From Leucobacter chromiireducens subsp. chromiireducens (lineage in GTDB: Bacteria > Actinomycetota > Actinomycetes > Actinomycetales > Microbacteriaceae), in contig NZ_QYAD01000001.1 in assembly GCF_016758255.1 (NCBI RefSeq), positions 868,001 to 932,000 on the forward strand: 64,000 nt of DNA. The letters run 5' to 3'. Made by a program: the position numbers and the translations under genes. Below are positions 5,102-12,289 of the stretch, one piece after another. Each line of letters begins with the position of its first letter. Position 1 is the stretch's first letter. The notes beneath the pieces were generated by a model. It saw nothing but the letters and a program-made list of their open reading frames with translations, had not been told where the DNA came from and did not search any database.

Positions 5102-6316
5102 TCAGGAGTCGCGCAGCGCGTCGACCGGTTCCACCCTGGCGGCCTTGATAGCCGGGTACCCGCCCGCGAGGAGACCCACGAGCGCGCCGACGACCACGCC
5201 GACGGGCGCGGCCCAGAGCGCGAGCACCGGTGTCCAGTTCTGCACGAGGCAGACCGCGATGAGCGCAAAGAGCCCCACCACCACACCGATGAGCCCGCCC
5301 AGGATGCCGATCGTCACCGACTCAAGCATGAACTGCTGCGCAATGTCACGGGTGCGAGCGCCCAGCGCGCGGCGCAGGCCGATCTCGCCGCGGCGCTCGG
5401 AGACCGAGAGCAGGGTGACGTTGGCGATACCAATGCCGCCGCCGATGAGAGCGACGATGCCGATTGCGAGGAACAGCACATTGATGTCTGACTCGACGTT
5501 GGCCTGAAGCGAGCTGGTGTTTGTGGGCGCGCCCACCTTGAACGCATCGGGGGAGTTCGGATTGAGCGCGATGGGAGCCTGCTTGGCCACCACGGACCCC
5601 GCGCCGACATCGATGCGGATGTCGAGGTTCTGCGCCGTGCCGAGCCCCAGCTCTGAGCGTGCGGTCTCGAGCGGCACGATGACGGAGTCGAGGAGTGTGG
5701 CGCGCGTGCCGACCTTCCCGAGGATCCCGATCACGGTGTAGGCCCTGCCGTCGACGAACACGGCCGGCTGGCCGGTGATACGGTTCACGCCGAGCCGCTT
5801 CGCCGCTTCGGCGCCGAGCACCGCGACGCGGTCGTGGCGTGCATCGTGACCTGCGTCAAAGAAGCGCCCCGCCCGGATCTTGCCCTGCACCACGTCGAGC
5901 AGCTCGGGGGAGGCCCCGAGCACGGGCGGCGACGCCTTCTGCGATTCGGAGGGGTCGGTGATCTGCACTGCCTCAACCTCGAGCGAGGCGGGCAGCTTCC
6001 CGATGAGTGCGGCGCTCTCCACGCCCGCAAGCGGCGTGACCCGGTCGACGGAGTCCCAGGGCAGCTTTGCGGTGGCGCGCTCCTTTCCGCCTGCGGCCTT
6101 GGTCGACCCTGGTTCAACCGTGACGCGCGTCGCGGCGAGCGCGTCGAACTGTTGCGAGATCTGACCCGCTGCGGTCTGCGCAAAACCGATGGTCGCGACG
6201 AGCGAGGCGATGCCGAGCACGGTGCCGATGAGCGTGATGACGAGCCGCGAAGGGCGTGAACCGATGCCCTCAAACGCCTCGTGGATCAGCGCCCGGAATG
6301 AGATGCGGCCGCTCAT
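5102..6316 (-). CDS. MacB/FtsX-type ABC transporter permease
   Basis: 404 residues. Architecture of MacB-like permeases: first membrane helix at about residues 20-42 (LVITLIGTVLGIASLVATIG), a large extracytoplasmic domain to about residue 285 (LGASPELLDVVQGKIRAGRF), then three helices forming the FtsX domain, including SVSERRGEIGLRRALGAR. Unlike Gram-negative MacB the ATPase is a separate gene. The ATG overlaps the stop of the ATPase gene upstream by four bases. Family knowledge points to export, or extrusion from the membrane, of peptides, antibiotics or lipids. The substrate is not determined; the divergently encoded peptide at 11322 is one candidate. Confidence 0.9.
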   Translation of the reverse strand: MSGRISFRALIHEAFEGIGSRPSRLVITLIGTVLGIASLVATIGFAQTAAGQISQQFDALAATRVTVEPGSTKAAGGKERATAKLPWDSVDRVTPLAGVESAALIGKLPASLEVEAVQITDPSESQKASPPVLGASPELLDVVQGKIRAGRFFDAGHDARHDRVAVLGAEAAKRLGVNRITGQPAVFVDGRAYTVIGILGKVGTRATLLDSVIVPLETARSELGLGTAQNLDIRIDVGAGSVVAKQAPIALNPNSPDAFKVGAPTNTSSLQANVESDINVLFLAIGIVALIGGGIGIANVTLLSVSERRGEIGLRRALGARTRDIAQQFMLESVTIGILGGLIGVVVGLFALIAVCLVQNWTPVLALWAAPVGVVVGALVGLLAGGYPAIKAARVEPVDALRDS

Positions 6317-7170
6317 GACAGCTCCTGAAGTTCGCCGTCGCTGATGCGGACCCGGCGACGGGCCGCGTCAGCCACCTTGGCGTCGTGGGTGATCATGACG
6401 ATGGTGAGGCCGTCGGCGCCGAGCTCGTCGAAGAGCCGCATGATGGACGCGGAGTTCTCACGGTCGAGGTTGCCCGTCGGCTCATCGGCGAGGAGGAGTC
6501 GCGGAGAGGTGCATACGGCGCGGGCGATGGCCACGCGCTGACGCTCGCCGCCCGAGAGCGTGTTCGGCGAGAAGTCGACGCGGTGGCTGAGACCCACGCG
6601 CTCGAGCGCAGTGCGGGCAAGCGGTTCGCGCTCCTCTCGGGTGAGGCCCGCGTAGGTGCCGGCAAGCATGACGTTCTCGAGCACGGTCCGTGTGGGCATG
6701 AGGTGAAACGATTGGAAGACGAACCCGACTGCCCGGCCGCGGAGTGCGGATCGCTGGTCGTCGCTCAGCTCGGAGACGTCGATCCCCTCGAAGAGAAAGC
6801 GGCCGGTGCTTGGGCGGTCGAGCAGGCCGAGCGTGTTCAGCATCGTCGACTTTCCCGAGCCAGACGGGCCGACAATCGCGAGGTAGTCTCCTCGCTCCAC
6901 GGTGAGGTTCACGCCGCGCAGCGCGTTCACCGGCGGCGGGCCAGGGAAGAACCGCGTGACATCCTCCAGCTGGACGATCGGGCCGGCAAAGTCAGGGTTG
7001 CCCGCTGCAAGTGCGCCACCGTCGCTCTGCGCCTCGCGCGCGTTCGCGCGGGCGCGCTTGCGCGCGCGGCGCACCACATCGCGGTCTCGCTCAGGCTTCG
7101 CGGACTCGTCCGGCGTGGGTTCCGCGCCAGCCGGCTCCGACTCGGCGAAGAGCGCCTCGACCGAGCTCAT
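6313..7170 (-). CDS. ABC transporter ATP-binding protein (MacB/LolD type)
   Basis: 285 residues. An approximately 60-residue charged N-terminal extension rich in Arg, Ala and Glu precedes a canonical ATPase domain. Walker A GPSGSGKS, the Q-loop in VGFVFQSFHLMP, signature LSGGERQRVAIARA, Walker B LLLADEPT and the switch His in MITHD are all present, so it should be catalytically active. It overlaps the adaptor gene upstream and the permease downstream by ATGA on both sides, giving strict translational coupling. The N-terminal extension is longer than usual for this family and has no recognisable motif. Confidence 0.93.
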   Translation of the reverse strand: MSSVEALFAESEPAGAEPTPDESAKPERDRDVVRRARKRARANAREAQSDGGALAAGNPDFAGPIVQLEDVTRFFPGPPPVNALRGVNLTVERGDYLAIVGPSGSGKSTMLNTLGLLDRPSTGRFLFEGIDVSELSDDQRSALRGRAVGFVFQSFHLMPTRTVLENVMLAGTYAGLTREEREPLARTALERVGLSHRVDFSPNTLSGGERQRVAIARAVCTSPRLLLADEPTGNLDRENSASIMRLFDELGADGLTIVMITHDAKVADAARRRVRISDGELQELS

Positions 7171-8708
7171 CGACCAACCACGACGCGGGCACCCGCGGTG
7201 ATCCGCGAGTCATCGGAGGTGATCTCAACGTAGCCGTCAGCCGCAAGGCCGGTCTTGACCTTGACGATCTCAGTCTTCGCGTCAGCGCCCTGGTCTTCCG
7301 AGACGAGTAGCTCGACGCGATCCTCGCCGCTCGAACCTGCGGACAGCGCCGCGATGGGCACCGCGAGCACCTCGCCGTCGGTTGCCGCGACGGGCACCCG
7401 AACGCGCACGTTGGTGCCGCGGAGCGCGTCGATCTGTTCGGGCTTCAGGTCCACGGGCGTGAGACGTACCGTGTAGCGGCTCGAGTCGCCGCCCGCGGAA
7501 CCACCGCCGCCACCGGCGTTGCCGCCCTCGCCGCCGGACTCCCCTTCGCCCGCGGCCTTCTTGCTCTTCGGTGCGACGATCTGCGCCACCTTCGCGGTGA
7601 GATCGGTTCCGTCGGGCCCCGGATACGTTGCGATGAGGCCCTCGCTCAGCAGCTCAGCGTCCTGCTTTGAGATGCTGCCCTCGATGGTGAGGGTGGCGCC
7701 CGACACCGTCATCGGCGAACCGGAGAGGATGTCGCCGCGCGCAACCGACACCTCGTCCACGCGGCGGGGGAGCCCCCCGAGGAACAGTGCCTCGCTCGAG
7801 GGGAGCGTGGGCAGTACGCCCTGCTGCGCGGTCGCGAGCGCGTCCTGTGCGTCGACGAGCGCATCGTTTGCCGAGGTCACGGCAGCCTGCTCAGAGAGGA
7901 GATTCTTCGCGCCGCCCGACGTCGCCTCCTGAAGTGCGGCCTGCGCCTGCGCGAGCTGCACGCCCGCGTCTCGTGCCGCGCGTTCGGCGGTCTGGAGCGT
8001 TTCCTGCGCCTGGCTTCCGCCCGCTGGTGCCGAGTACCCGATCTGCTCGTAGAGCGCGCCGAGCGCGGTTGCCGTGTCGTACTCGAACACGTCGGAAGCG
8101 GTGTCGCCCGCCCAGAAACCCATCCCGTCGAGTGCCTGCTTCAGCTGCGTCACATCCGGGCCGCGCATCCCGATGCTCAGCGTGCGGTAGGCGGGGAGTG
8201 CGCCGGGGAGCACGATGACTGGTCGCCCGGCCACCTCAAGCGCGATGTTCGCTGCGTTGAGCACCGTGCCGACCTCGGGCACGTGGCCCGTGACAACGGG
8301 GCGGTCTTCCGAGCCCGCGGCGTCGAGCGTGACGCTCACGGCGTCCGCGTACGTTACCTCGCCGCGGGTCACCACGGTGTTCTCGAGCTCGCGCTCCTCG
8401 ATGGGCGCCGTGACCGGTCCAGCCTTCGGCGGCGCAGTGCGTGCGGCGAGCTCCGCAGGGGAGACGATGAACTGCATCACGGCAACGCCGATCAGCAGCG
8501 AGACGACCGCGACCGCGGCGATGAGCCCAACGAGTCGGGTCCCCGACCAGTTCCCCCGCAACCCGCGACGCGCACGCCCCGGTGCGGCGTCTGTGCCGTC
8601 GCTCGACGGCTCGCCAGCCTCGGTGAGGTCGGCCGAGGTGACCGTCGAATCGGCAGGCTGCTGCGCCGCCCGGGCACGCTTGCGCTTCGGGCGCTGGGGG
8701 AACTTCAC
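7167..8708 (-). CDS. HlyD/MacA-type efflux adaptor with peptidoglycan-binding domain
   Basis: 513 residues. Order: a basic, disordered cytoplasmic stretch (1-55), one membrane anchor at about 58-80 (TRLVGLIAAVAVVSLLIGVA), a beta/lipoyl-like region, a PG_binding_1 segment at about 185-235 (LSIGMRGPDVTQLKQALDGM), an Ala/Gln-rich coiled coil at about 250-300, a Gly-rich linker near 400, and a C-terminal beta domain. This plan is typical of Gram-positive adaptors paired with MacB-like permeases. The GTG start lies five bases after the stop of the lipoprotein gene and the end overlaps the ATPase gene. It probably links the permease to the cell wall. Coordinates of the inner domains are approximate. 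Confidence 0.88.
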   Translation of the reverse strand: MKFPQRPKRKRARAAQQPADSTVTSADLTEAGEPSSDGTDAAPGRARRGLRGNWSGTRLVGLIAAVAVVSLLIGVAVMQFIVSPAELAARTAPPKAGPVTAPIEERELENTVVTRGEVTYADAVSVTLDAAGSEDRPVVTGHVPEVGTVLNAANIALEVAGRPVIVLPGALPAYRTLSIGMRGPDVTQLKQALDGMGFWAGDTASDVFEYDTATALGALYEQIGYSAPAGGSQAQETLQTAERAARDAGVQLAQAQAALQEATSGGAKNLLSEQAAVTSANDALVDAQDALATAQQGVLPTLPSSEALFLGGLPRRVDEVSVARGDILSGSPMTVSGATLTIEGSISKQDAELLSEGLIATYPGPDGTDLTAKVAQIVAPKSKKAAGEGESGGEGGNAGGGGGSAGGDSSRYTVRLTPVDLKPEQIDALRGTNVRVRVPVAATDGEVLAVPIAALSAGSSGEDRVELLVSEDQGADAKTEIVKVKTGLAADGYVEITSDDSRITAGARVVVGR

Positions 8709-8713
8709 CGGAG

Positions 8714-9739
8714 TTAGTCCTTCTTCTTCGTGCTGTACTTCGAGGTCAGTGCCTCGAGCTCGGACTTGTGCTCGTCAACAAACTTCTGCTGCGCGTCGAA
8801 CATGATCTTCTGCTCGGTCTTTTCGAAGTCGACCTTCTTCTTGCAGCTGAAGTCTGCGGTGGCCATCTCGATCTCGCGCTTCTGGAACTCGTCCTTCTGC
8901 TTCTTGCTCGGCTCCTTGTACTCCTCGTCCGTGGACTCACCCAGGCTGTAGTACTCCTCGTTCATGGAGTTCTGAGCGGTCATGGGGGACGTGAGGTCAG
9001 GGTAGCCCGCATCAGCCATGCAGTCTGACCACTTCGTGTTCAGCTTCTCAATCTCGGGGCTCAGGTTCTCCTCGTCCCACATGCCGTTGTACATCTCGTT
9101 CATCGCGGCGAAGAGATCAGCGAACTCGGGGTCCTCGTAGGCCCCGGCCATGTCGCCGTTCACCTCGTGCTGTGCGGCGCCGTAGCAGCCCTCCTGCGTC
9201 CAGTCGCTCTGGTAGCTGCCGCTCTCCTCCATCTCGGCCATCTGCTCTTCGGTGGGGCCGGTGCCGTGGAGGGTCTCGTAGAAGGCCTGCTGCTCGGAGT
9301 CGCTGAGCGACTCAACGTACTTCTGGTTCGGATCAACCTGCTCCTCGCCGGGCTCTTCGGGCTGGTCGTTCATGCCCGGCCAGTTGACGATGCCGTAGCC
9401 GTACTCCTTGACGAACTCTTCACTGCCCCACGCCGGGCCGTCCTGTTCGTCTTCCGAGGAGATGACCACGCCGCCTGACTGCGTGTTGGGCTTGTACTCG
9501 AAGCCCTCCTTCGTCATGCACTCGGCGACGAGCTCTTCGATCTTCAGCTGATCCTTGTCGAGCTTCTCCTGCGTGTACTCCTCGCCGTCCCAGAGCACGG
9601 AGAGGTACTTGTCGAGCGGCCCCTCCTCAACCTCGGCGTTCGACCCGCCCTTCGCGGAGCTGCAGCCGCTGAGCGCGAGCGCAGCGATCGCCAGAGACGC
9701 GGGAAGCCAAATGCGTGCGGAACGTGTGCGTGAAGACAT
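8714..9739 (-). CDS. Large acidic lipoprotein, first gene of exporter operon
   Basis: 341 residues from the ATG at 9739, which has a strong GAGGTGG ribosome site; a frame extension to 9799 lacks one. Signal peptide with lipobox ALSGC, then a very acidic mature protein (many Glu, Asp, Gln) with isolated Cys residues (VAECMTKEGFEY, CYGAAQHE, DCMADAGYPDL, DFSCKKKVDF). I recognise no family. The conserved-looking Cys-Met pairs resemble those of other uncharacterised actinobacterial lipoproteins encoded beside MacAB-like systems. Its position as leader gene of the exporter operon suggests a substrate-capture or accessory role, which is inference. Confidence 0.82.
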   Translation of the reverse strand: MSSRTRSARIWLPASLAIAALALSGCSSAKGGSNAEVEEGPLDKYLSVLWDGEEYTQEKLDKDQLKIEELVAECMTKEGFEYKPNTQSGGVVISSEDEQDGPAWGSEEFVKEYGYGIVNWPGMNDQPEEPGEEQVDPNQKYVESLSDSEQQAFYETLHGTGPTEEQMAEMEESGSYQSDWTQEGCYGAAQHEVNGDMAGAYEDPEFADLFAAMNEMYNGMWDEENLSPEIEKLNTKWSDCMADAGYPDLTSPMTAQNSMNEEYYSLGESTDEEYKEPSKKQKDEFQKREIEMATADFSCKKKVDFEKTEQKIMFDAQQKFVDEHKSELEALTSKYSTKKKD

Positions 9740-9752
9740 GCCACCTCGATTG

Positions 9753-9796
9753 TGAGTAGTTCGTTGCAGAGACCCCGCAACACATGAGTAGTTCGT
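9753..9796 (-). repeat. 12-bp direct repeat, candidate operator of exporter operon
   Basis: TGAGTAGTTCGT occurs at 9753-9764 and again at 9785-9796, 32 bases apart (about three helical turns), immediately upstream of the lipoprotein ribosome site. Between them is the inverted repeat GTTGC/GCAAC (9763-9767, 9777-9781). Paired half-sites on one DNA face are typical for response-regulator dimers, and a LuxR-type regulator is encoded divergently at 11612. The rest of the 302-base gap up to 10041 holds the kinase promoter and the short frame described separately. Confidence 0.5.
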
Positions 9797-9970
9797 CAAG
9801 CTAGCACAGCGACGGCGGCGCGAGCGTCGTTTTCCACAAGGTCGGTACCCGGGTACTACGGTCGAATGTGAAAACTGCGCACGCCTGTGTGCCCGGCGAG
9901 CCCTCCGCGCAGACTATGCGCACGAAACCGTGCGCCACATCCCTCAGCTGAGGGGTCTGCGCTGGGCGTT

Positions 9971-9983: not shown

Positions 9984-10058
9984 ATGCACACTCCGCAGTT
10001 TGGCGCCGCTTCCGCGCCTCGCTCTCGCTCGTGCCGCGCGCATGTCCAGCTCGGCTGA
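9984..10058 (+). CDS. Possible leaderless 24-residue uORF overlapping the kinase start
   Basis: ATG at 9984, 13 nt after the start of TATACT, opens a 24-codon frame ending in TGA at 10056-10058, beyond the likely kinase start at 10042. It could couple or attenuate kinase translation. Alternatively, a single-base sequence error between 9984 and 10042 could hide the true kinase N-terminus. Weakly supported. Confidence 0.25.
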   Translation: MHTPQFGAASAPRSRSCRAHVQLG

Positions 10059-11325
10059 GACCCGCACGCCCGCCTGGTCGCTCCCCGCATGGGTTGAGCG
10101 TTCGCCAGTCCGGGCGAAGATTGCGCGCTGGGCACTCGGCACGCGCTTCGTCGATCCGCCCATTCGCGGCTTCGCGTTGCTCCTCGGCCTGTCCGGGCTG
10201 CTTCCTTCCGCTGCGGAGAGTTCGGAACCGCTCTACCTCCTGTTTCACTACGCATCGGGCCTGCTCGTCATCGCGAGTGCGTTTATCCCGCTCGCGAGCG
10301 GCACGGTTGCCGCCGCGCTCTTCGTGGTGTTCCTCTTCGTCTTCCCCGAATACCTCAACCCGTTCTATACGGCGCTCGAGTTCGCTTCGGGGCTGCTGCT
10401 CGTGCGGTTTGCGTGGCGCTGGTCGCTCGTGATGCTCGGTGTGCTGGTGGGAGCTGGCTGGTTGGCTCGCACACTCACCCCGGAGACCGCGATGCCGCTC
10501 GGGATGCAGCTCTACTCGTGGGCGTACATCGCGCTGCTCGGTGCTGCGGCGTACCTGGTCGAGGCCCGCATCCGCCGCGAGATCGCGCAACGTGAGCAGA
10601 ACGCACGTGATCACGAGCGGGAACTCCAACGGATGCGCTTGGGCGTCGCGACGGACGTGCACGACACGGTGTCGCACGGTCTCGCCACTCAGCTCGCCAT
10701 CGTGCGCTTGCTCTCGGTTGAGCAGGACCGCGATGAGTCCGCGCGCATGCTGGGCGAACTCGCGGTGCGCACGGAGAGTGCGCAGGACGAGCTCCGCGCG
10801 CTGCTTACCGGGCTGCACGGGGGAAACGGTGCTGGCGCGCCGGCGGTGCCGGTGGGGGCCGCCGAGCTGAGAAGCGCCGTGGCGCGGCTCAGTGAGGCCG
10901 CTGCGGCGGGCGGATCCCGCATCGTCACCACATATGGTGAGTTGCCCGAGGCGATTCGCGCAGACACGCTCGATGACGCAGTGTTTGTGCTCCGCGAATT
11001 GGTCACCAACATCATCAAGCACGCCTCTGGTGAGGGGGAGCGTGCGCTTCGCGTGCGCACGATCACTGATGCCCGGGGCACGTGGCTGCTGCTTGCGTCG
11101 GAGAATCCGGTGGCGAGCCCCGTCACCCAGGTGCCCTGGAGCCTCTCGGCTCGCGTCACCCAGCGCGGTGGCGTGTGCGAGGCAGAGACCGTGCAGGATC
11201 GCTACGGTGTGCGCGTGCTCCTGCCGCTCAGCGGCGCGCAGATTTCCACACACGGTTTGGCTTCGGAATCGTCCCCCGAGCGGGGGATGCTGGATTCTGG
11301 GAAGGTCGATGAAATGAGGGTGTGA
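10042..11325 (+). CDS. Membrane sensor histidine kinase (NarL/DesK-type, HisKA_3)
   Basis: 427 residues from ATG 10042; a TTG at 10000 would add 14. The N-terminal 180 residues contain several hydrophobic helices (GFALLLGLSGLLPS, LLVIASAFIPLASGTVAAAL, VMLGVLVGAGWL, YIALLGAAAYLVEA) and no large extracellular domain, as in kinases that sense membrane or peptide signals. Dimerisation helix with DVHDTVSHGLATQLA, phosphoacceptor His about residue 207; a HATPase domain follows, with N-box LRELVTNIIKHASGEGE. The last glycine box is weak. No Shine-Dalgarno precedes 10042. The stop overlaps the secreted-peptide gene by four bases, so the kinase and peptide are co-translated. Confidence 0.88.
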   Translation: MSSSAETRTPAWSLPAWVERSPVRAKIARWALGTRFVDPPIRGFALLLGLSGLLPSAAESSEPLYLLFHYASGLLVIASAFIPLASGTVAAALFVVFLFVFPEYLNPFYTALEFASGLLLVRFAWRWSLVMLGVLVGAGWLARTLTPETAMPLGMQLYSWAYIALLGAAAYLVEARIRREIAQREQNARDHERELQRMRLGVATDVHDTVSHGLATQLAIVRLLSVEQDRDESARMLGELAVRTESAQDELRALLTGLHGGNGAGAPAVPVGAAELRSAVARLSEAAAAGGSRIVTTYGELPEAIRADTLDDAVFVLRELVTNIIKHASGEGERALRVRTITDARGTWLLLASENPVASPVTQVPWSLSARVTQRGGVCEAETVQDRYGVRVLLPLSGAQISTHGLASESSPERGMLDSGKVDEMRV

Positions 11326-11615
11326 AAGCCCTCTTTGCTACTCTTGCCGCCACTGTCCTGCTGCTGCTCGGAGCGGTCGCTCAGCCCGCCTCAGCGACCG
11401 CGAATACGGAGGCGGTGACGATGGTCTCGGCCGAGGTGCTCGGCGCGACCGGCGTGGGTGCCGACGAGGCAAGCGACGGCGGCATCAATCTCATGGGAGA
11501 CGAGATCATTCCTGGCGATCCGTATGCTGGCCAGGAAGATGCGCGCGCCACGCTTGCCGAGTGCAAGTTCTGGTTCATCCACAACAAGCCCCTGTACCGA
11601 AAGTACTGCCTGTGA
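11322..11615 (+). CDS. Small secreted peptide with two cysteines, encoded between kinase and regulator
   Basis: 97 residues from GTG. Seen: a signal peptide (MKALFATLAATVLLLLGAVA) with likely cleavage after PASA near residue 25, an acidic Gly/Ala/Asp-rich middle (26-80), and a basic aromatic tail in which C81 and C96 bracket KFWFIHNKPLYRKY before a final Leu. A disulfide- or thioether-closed loop of 16 residues is possible. Both ends overlap the neighbouring genes by GTGA, so expression is locked to the kinase and the response regulator. I recognise no family. Pheromone, antimicrobial prepropeptide or small accessory sensor subunit are all possible. Confidence 0.8.
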   Translation: MKALFATLAATVLLLLGAVAQPASATANTEAVTMVSAEVLGATGVGADEASDGGINLMGDEIIPGDPYAGQEDARATLAECKFWFIHNKPLYRKYCL

Positions 11616-12289
11616 GTTTCCCCGCCCCCGCTGCTGCACCCGCTCCGCTTCGCGTGCTCGTCGTCGACGATGATCCGTGGACCACGCGCGCGGTTGTGCA
11701 CGCACTCGCAGGGGATCCGGGCCTCAGCCCGCTCGTCCCCGTACACAGCGGAGAGGCGGCGGTTGCGGCCTACGAGGAGCACCGGCCGGATGTGGTGCTC
11801 ATGGACCTCAGCATGCCCCCCGGAATGAGTGGGGTCGAGGCGACCGCGCTCATCCGGCGGGTGAACCCCGACGCGTGCGTCGTGGTGCTCACGACCGTGT
11901 CGCCCGGGCCCGGGGTGGCGCGTGCGCTCGAGGCCGGAGCGATCTGCGCGCTGCAGAAGACCGCGCCGCCGGACACCCTGTGCGCTGCCGTGAAGCTTGC
12001 GGCTGAGGGCGGGGCGCCCACCCTGCTGAAGCGACTCGCGAGCGACATCTCGATCGCGGGGGATACGCTCCCGGACGCGCCGATCGTTGCTCCGGTGCTC
12101 ACCCCGTCGGAGTACGCAATCCTCTTGCTGGTGTGCGAGGGCCGCAGCTATGAGGAGATCGCCGAGTCGCAGGGCATTACGGTGTGGACCGCGAAGTCGC
12201 ACGTGAAGCGGCTCCGCGAGAAGCTCGCCGCCGAGAACCTCGCGCAACTCGTGGTGCGCGCGCTTCAGTTCCGCTTTATTGGCGGCTGA
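11612..12289 (+). CDS. LuxR/NarL-type response regulator
   Basis: 225 residues from the GTG at 11612, which overlaps the stop of the peptide gene. The receiver domain has the acidic triad in RVLVVDDDPW, phosphoacceptor Asp65 in VVLMDLSMPPGMSG, the Thr of VVLTT and the Lys of ALQKTAPP. A C-terminal LuxR helix-turn-helix follows at about 165-220 (LTPSEYAILLLVCEGRSYEE, GITVWTAKSHVKRLREKL). It is the obvious partner of the kinase two genes upstream. Direct repeats in front of the divergent exporter operon are candidate targets. Confidence 0.92.
   Translation: MSFPAPAAAPAPLRVLVVDDDPWTTRAVVHALAGDPGLSPLVPVHSGEAAVAAYEEHRPDVVLMDLSMPPGMSGVEATALIRRVNPDACVVVLTTVSPGPGVARALEAGAICALQKTAPPDTLCAAVKLAAEGGAPTLLKRLASDISIAGDTLPDAPIVAPVLTPSEYAILLLVCEGRSYEEIAESQGITVWTAKSHVKRLREKLAAENLAQLVVRALQFRFIGG

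Follow-up and report, generated by a model that had tools for sequence, protein, structure and literature searches.

A short gene on the forward strand (11322..11615) has a GTG start and encodes a protein of 97 residues that ends in C81...C96-L. It lies in the window, by which we mean the whole stretch of 64,000 nucleotides that was analysed, between a sensor histidine kinase gene (10042..11325, forward strand) and the gene of a NarL/LuxR-type response regulator (11612..12289, forward strand; Response_reg 9e-20, GerE 4.5e-9). Both flanks are 4-nt GTGA overlaps, the kinase frame ending at 11325 and a possible regulator start lying at 11612. The sequence-only reading had claimed a 97-codon gene coupled in this way, with a Cys pair at C81 and C96 near the C-terminus; the ORF coordinates bear out the arrangement, and Cys is present at both positions. 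The observation is correct and the peptide gene is a real feature. From this ORF and its relatives at other loci it was annotated as a prepropeptide gene with three parts, all read on the forward strand. The first is a signal-peptide-like start (11322..11396), recognised by a hydrophobic window and an A-x-A motif, with a candidate cut after ASA-25. A variable acidic pro-region follows (11397..11561), delimited by the precursor alignment and pairwise pN/pS comparison. The 17-residue tail CKFWFIHNKPLYRKYCL (11562..11612) is the candidate mature peptide, marked out by a motif found in 16/16 aligned precursors, by pN and by the helices of a structural model.

No Pfam family came near its cut-off with the peptide (best DUF7315, E 0.09, 13.7 bits against 27), NCBIfam gave no match at E 0.1, and the tail profile gave no convincing match among PDB sequences (best E 1.2). 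These searches agree with the earlier remark that no described family was recognised. Lactococcin 972 and other bacteriocin families in Pfam and NCBIfam likewise gave no match. A search of the open-access literature, with subscription papers and preprints outside it, found no paper on this peptide family.

Occurrence of the gene and its C-terminal tail

A gene of 62-101 codons between a related kinase and regulator was found at 17 loci in 17 genomes of four genera: five in Leucobacter (Microbacteriaceae), two in g51 of the same family, and five each in g91 and g96, one genus each of two further families within the order. The sequence-only reading would have been refuted by absent or frameshifted homologues, and it passed this check: in all 17 genomes the homologue is open and placed between kinase and regulator genes, with one confirmed copy per genome; the kinase of G539 is split by an insertion. 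Reading of 16 triads showed the ORF flanked by a kinase belonging to the same family and by a regulator, with the kinase of G841 cut by a contig end; a further triad, that of G452 (L111), has the same arrangement. Response_reg and GerE were present in 3/3 regulators scanned (window, L092 and L093), and the regulators of the remaining loci were assigned by reading. The regulator-side junction is an NTGA or TAATG overlap in 14/16 loci and a 7-nt gap in L091 and L092. At L097, the G539 locus, the insertion carries a 450-codon transposase-like ORF (kinase and insertion at about 5809-8811), and the peptide motif and regulator are still open.

Within Leucobacter 5/54 genomes were positive (the window, G029, G007, G053 and G052). 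It was the regulator and not the peptide that led to the loci of G053 and G052 (L086 and L087); the motif is present there nonetheless, in short ORFs ending CALWKRVDMPRYRKYCL or CALWRETNPALYRKYCL. Among 398 sampled genomes of the family the tail profile gave three rows below E 1e-5, the window among them, and the other two belong to g51 (2/2 genomes); at E 0.5, 124 genomes pass, mostly by chance. Fifteen of 396 sampled order genomes pass E 0.01, of which 12 were read, nine being confirmed (window included) and three rejected. The gene is carried by 5/57 genomes of g91, where three weak rows were rejected, and by 4/38 genomes of g96 according to the tail profile, to which G452 was added through its kinase. 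In 394 genomes of the class, strong rows came from the window and G447 only. Because the tail profile missed at least one member (L111), all locus counts are lower bounds.

When profiles were built without them, 4/4 further rows below E 1e-5 (G172, G103, G627 and G676) proved to lie between kinase and regulator. Agreement between motif and context was the ground for accepting seven weaker rows, from E 2e-4 to 0.008 (G750, G447, G686, G509, G753, G539 and G841). Several weak profile matches were rejected as chance: L016, which has an internal stop and lies in another gene, and, after reading, L050, L051, L055, L066, L067, L068 and L073. L004 (E 0.005) and L005 (E 0.009) each fall within an unrelated open frame, of 850 codons for the former and 344 for the latter.

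The precursor alignment (A7) holds 16 sequences of 62-101 aa; L094 was left out, as it differs from L093 by one residue outside the tail. The signal and middle regions are strongly divergent and the tail is kept. All 16 precursors end in C-x2-W-x3-[DN]-x3-[YF]-x3-C followed by one or two residues. Cys, Trp and Cys are invariant; tail position 8 is Asp/Asn and position 12 is Tyr/Phe, each in 16/16. Conservation of the two Cys, a second point on which the sequence-only reading could have been refuted, holds throughout the alignment. The last residue varies (L, R, T, K, V or MG) and tracks the overlap, while the final Cys is constant. An acidic middle had also been described: it stands for the window (charge -10 over 52 residues) and its two nearest relatives (-8 and -9) but not for the other 13 precursors measured (-3 to +2), so that an acidic pro-region is a trait of the three closest Leucobacter only. 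The most hydrophobic window is N-terminal (start 1-13) in 13/16 precursors and lies further in for L085, L089 and L090. Tail charge is +1 to +5 in 15/16 and 0 in L111. In L085 (G007, 9033-9338) the signal region is swollen by Ala/Leu-rich segments and the tail is nearly unchanged.

The spacing of the two Cys is by itself a weak argument, since pairs of Cys at this distance (14) often arise by chance close to a stop: C-x14-C-end has 67 matches in 307,182 bases read in six frames and 18 in 137,995 background bases. The fuller pattern C-x2-W-x7-[YF]-x3-C-end gave 16 matches in the same 307,182 bases, one per source, and none in 46 background loci. These 16 sources had been picked for motif or operon, and the informative part of the count is that no second copy appears and that each copy stands at a kinase-regulator junction.

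Six precursor pairs were compared for substitutions, with the tail defined as the final 18 codons. In 5/6 pairs, three of which share members, pN was 0-0.08 in the tail versus 0.18-0.35 in the rest, and the sixth pair, L093/L094, is near-identical throughout. In the four Leucobacter and g51 pairs pS was also low in the tail (0-0.20 versus 0.50-0.56), a value that depends on about 10 synonymous sites only. In L091/L092 pS was equal in both parts (0.44 and 0.43), which places the tail constraint in that pair on the protein. Amino-acid constraint on the tail is clear from these comparisons. Added constraint at the DNA level is possible, as part of the DNA identity in the Leucobacter and g51 pairs may serve the ribosome site of the regulator.

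The AlphaFold model of the precursor, built on the 16-row alignment, has a mean pLDDT of 64.7 and a pTM of 0.34. In ten-residue blocks pLDDT is 49-56 up to residue 60 and then 74, 84, 92 and 88. The tail is modelled with confidence as a helix-kink-helix (helices 78-87 and 89-95), and the conserved Asn/Asp (N88) falls at the helix break, where it may serve as an N-cap. A straight helix, in which C, W, D/N, Y and C would all share a face and an internal disulfide would be precluded, was considered and set aside, since the model breaks at 88.

The kinase sensor domain

The kinase of the window was assigned to the HisKA_3 type by Pfam (1.5e-5, above cut-off). Nine kinases were scanned with HisKA_3 (cut-off 24 bits). 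Those of the window (25.9) and L088 (24.3) pass; L086, L087, L090, L093 and L096 fall under the cut-off (18.1-20 bits), and L091 and L095 gave no match at E 0.01. Kinases below the cut-off were placed in the family by alignment and the sensor profile. The AlphaFold model (mean pLDDT 78, pTM 0.46) shows six membrane-type helices without any outer domain; the helices before the core are at 38-52, 63-79, 83-100, 108-121, 125-145 and from 153 onward. With the catalytic part inside and six transmembrane (TM) helices, loops 53-62 and 101-107 of the model would be outside, and the 101-107 loop, between TM3 and TM4, leads into Asn106-Pro107-Phe108. Foldseek of the model against the PDB returned cytoplasmic kinase parts, DesK among them, and no sensor-domain match was recognised among the best 50 matches listed.

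A sensor profile (A6) was made whose eight members are peptide-bearing kinases and all contain NP[FW]. In 297 order genomes, most of them scored on 10 first-look candidates, it found the kinase in at least 20, eight with an adjacent peptide and 12 without. In 199 family genomes it found three kinases, all with the peptide. Of the 12 peptide-free order genomes, 10 have the regulator directly after the kinase (in G587 the contig is broken); the other two, G574 and G666, showed no such regulator on the kinase strand. The 12/20 sensor-domain genomes with no adjacent peptide point either to another sensor input or to a peptide that is dispensable.

NP[FW] occurs in the TM3-TM4 loop of 11/16 peptide-bearing kinases with a readable loop versus 0/11 peptide-free kinases (Fisher p 0.0003, no independent test, given the relatedness of the rows and the bias of the profile towards NP[FW]). 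This count leaves out the split kinases of G539 and G587; the N-terminal piece of the former reads GNFF. The L090 kinase has a longer N-terminus with NPF present, and NP[FW] is also present in L098. In 9/11 peptide-free kinases the loop is PDLENM[FY] or PSLENMY.

A kinase tree of 26 rows needs two changes of label; clades without the peptide sit among clades that have it, and the families are mixed. This topology suits loss and transfer of the cassette, a reading that long branches and weak inner forks leave unsure. Two further kinase observations were made. G029, which has a full triad, also carries a paralogous kinase-regulator pair without a peptide (C1, L011): its second regulator homologue (57%) is not preceded by a peptide gene, and the sensor region of the kinase is shortened by eye. 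G509 has a second sensor-domain fragment (L120, C10:40953-41177), immediately past the regulator and on the other strand, which is perhaps a decayed duplicate kinase.

The divergent operon and other neighbours

Divergent from the kinase gene, on the reverse strand, is a possible target operon. Its first gene (8714..9739) encodes a lipoprotein-like protein with an LSGC lipobox, seen by eye; it had no Pfam or NCBIfam match, and a similar protein is encoded at the equivalent position in both of the nearest relatives. The next gene (7167..8708) is, from its position, probably that of the fusion protein of an ABC exporter. It had no Pfam match at 1e-5 and weak NCBIfam matches, and the L093 gene in this position matches HlyD_3 and PG_binding_1. 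An ABC exporter ATPase (6313..7170; Pfam ABC_tran 1e-33, with NCBIfam LolD, MacB and L_ocin_972_ABC below cut-offs) and a MacB-type permease (5102..6316; Pfam MacB_PCD 1e-21, FtsX 1.1e-18) complete the set.

Blocks of the region between the kinase gene and this operon are kept among the three Leucobacter. Two candidate sites lie at 9735-9865 and are preserved in part in two relatives. A direct repeat found by repeat search, two copies of TGAGTAGTTCGT at a spacing of 32 (9753..9796, forward strand), is a candidate regulator site before the divergent operon. Its 11-nt core has no further copy in the window at up to one mismatch, and at least two copies arose in 6/100 window shuffles, which makes the support modest. 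The same search found a 10-nt, 90% version at a spacing of 33 in L084 and none in L085. Comparison of the intergenic regions gave a second candidate site, the partly palindromic GGTACCCGGGTACTACG (9844..9860, forward strand), which is mostly kept in the three species.

In the window, L084, L085, L093 and L094 the kinase gene and an ABC ATPase operon are arranged head to head, and in L090 and L097 the regulator is followed by a small protein and an ABC ATPase. ABC_tran was confirmed in 7/7 of these ATPases, which are thus adjacent in 7/16 loci. Neighbours of the other nine loci were judged by eye, and L091 and L098 are on short contigs. No protease, exporter or immunity gene common to all loci was seen, the last as judged by eye. 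Small proteins of 122-147 aa were noted beside four triads (L090 7574-8017, L093 6584-6952, L095 6669-7037 and L097 9771-10178). Three have a signal-like start by eye, and the setting is bacteriocin-like; none matched a Pfam or NCBIfam family at cut-off, bacteriocin families included. At L098 a DUF6973 protein with a signal-like start (1306-1989) comes right after the regulator and is followed by a lipoprotein-like gene.

Candidate function and known systems

The computation supports a gene family with a fixed position, a conserved tail and a fast-changing remainder. We consider that the gene probably encodes an autoinducing prepropeptide, perhaps with good probability disulfide-closed, that is sensed by its own kinase. 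Export, cutting, the disulfide, binding and the targets are steps that we infer. The precursor would be exported via the Sec pathway and the variable pro-region removed. The last 17-18 residues or so, probably closed by a C81-C96 disulfide, would form the short helix-kink-helix; one guess is that the cut follows the Ala that precedes the first Cys by two places, which would leave E-C or Q-C. Once processed, the tail would work from the cell exterior on the six-TM sensor domain of the kinase encoded next to it, and that kinase would phosphorylate the LuxR-type regulator. The regulator would in turn act on the operon that encodes it; in the window it would probably act on the divergent lipoprotein-ABC exporter operon as well. 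Several findings weigh against this reading: five peptide-bearing kinases have no NP[FW], 12/20 sensor-domain genomes have no adjacent peptide, no protease or exporter common to all loci was seen, tail pS is low in the Leucobacter and g51 pairs, and the tail is undiversified within three close species, unlike in many pheromone groups. The sequence-only reading had named a signal, an antimicrobial and a small accessory sensor subunit. All three are possible, and the analysis supports ranking the signal first.

The accessory subunit is the stronger of the other two, and we regard it as rather unlikely. The secreted protein would here be retained at the membrane as a small outer partner or inhibitor of the kinase, in an envelope-stress or redox response based on the Cys pair and with no signal between cells. 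A kinase modelled without an outer domain and the coupling of the kinase, peptide and regulator genes would suit such a role; an invariant Cys pair could act as a redox switch, and an ABC ATPase beside 7/16 loci would suit an envelope response. However, conservation is confined to the 17-residue tail, and the spacer differs greatly between precursors in both length and sequence; such a pattern is more in keeping with a released end than with a folded subunit. Less probable again is an antimicrobial under its own sensor, in which a cationic, aromatic tail would kill relatives, the kinase would measure the tail and the ABC operon would provide export or immunity. Tail charges of +1 to +5 in 15/16 precursors, the ABC genes at the same 7/16 loci and the small 122-147-aa proteins beside some loci are consistent with it. 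A gene between kinase and regulator fits low, regulated expression, however, an immunity gene shared by all loci was not seen by eye, and the L111 tail carries a charge of 0. That the ORF is leader-like and has no peptide function, its end preserved solely because it couples translation to that of the regulator, is very improbable: the 4-nt NTGA or TAATG junctions at 14/16 loci and the low tail pS in Leucobacter and g51 pairs agree with it, but the pattern Cys, Trp, Asp/Asn, Tyr/Phe, Cys persists over 48 nt, the last residue varies with the overlap, and L091 and L092, with a 7-nt gap, keep the motif with pS not reduced.

Returning to the autoinducing peptide, the system is best read, by analogy, as working like known peptide-kinase-regulator circuits. 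Peptide signalling via sensor kinases is textbook knowledge for Firmicutes. The class II bacteriocin and competence systems ComCDE and PlnABCD combine an inducing peptide, an HPK10 kinase and a LytTR regulator. They share with the present loci the grouping of peptide, multi-TM kinase and regulator, a small precursor with a conserved C-terminal part, and ABC genes near some loci. The present loci differ in a Sec-type start, a HisKA_3-type kinase, a NarL-type regulator and a peptide gene between the two. The defining features of the ComC type were not found: alignment A7 has no GG common to the precursors before the tail and has a hydrophobic start instead, and none of the three scanned regulators is of the LytTR type. 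The agr-type cyclic peptide systems have in common with these loci a multi-TM sensor kinase with no outer domain and a likely ring. Membership there is unlikely; two invariant Cys with one or two residues after the last make a disulfide likelier than an agr-type thiolactone, and no AgrB-like gene was noted among the listed neighbours, part of which were scanned with models.

On sequence grounds both the kinase and the regulator fit the HisKA_3/NarL two-component systems. The DesK/LiaS-type members share the cytoplasmic part of the kinase and the regulator class, and differ from these loci in the embedded peptide and in a sensor domain with G-x-R-x-[VI]-D and NP[FW] (11/16). We propose, tentatively and with less assurance than the autoinducing role itself, that the loci represent an undescribed actinobacterial pheromone class. 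It would be characterised by Sec-exported precursors, a disulfide-closed 17-residue helix-kink-helix, six-TM HisKA_3-type kinases with an outer NP[FW] loop, transfer of the cassette between families, and local wiring to ABC exporter or bacteriocin-like genes. To our knowledge, peptide-kinase signalling has been little worked out in Actinomycetota. What the family offers is a candidate ligand that is short and chemically accessible, together with a named candidate receptor and an operon as candidate target; a single synthetic peptide and a single reporter would be enough to address the signalling question. A 2016 review describes communication in Actinomycetota as scarcely explored apart from the Streptomyces butyrolactones, and quorum-sensing evidence in Microbacterium as absent, even at the bioinformatic level (PMC4748050).

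The present loci also resemble two-component systems with an exported partner encoded beside them, with export predicted here. Such partners are known as HbpS (SenS/SenR) and CseA (CseBC), which are folded proteins or lipoproteins; in the family described here, by contrast, only the 17-residue end is kept.
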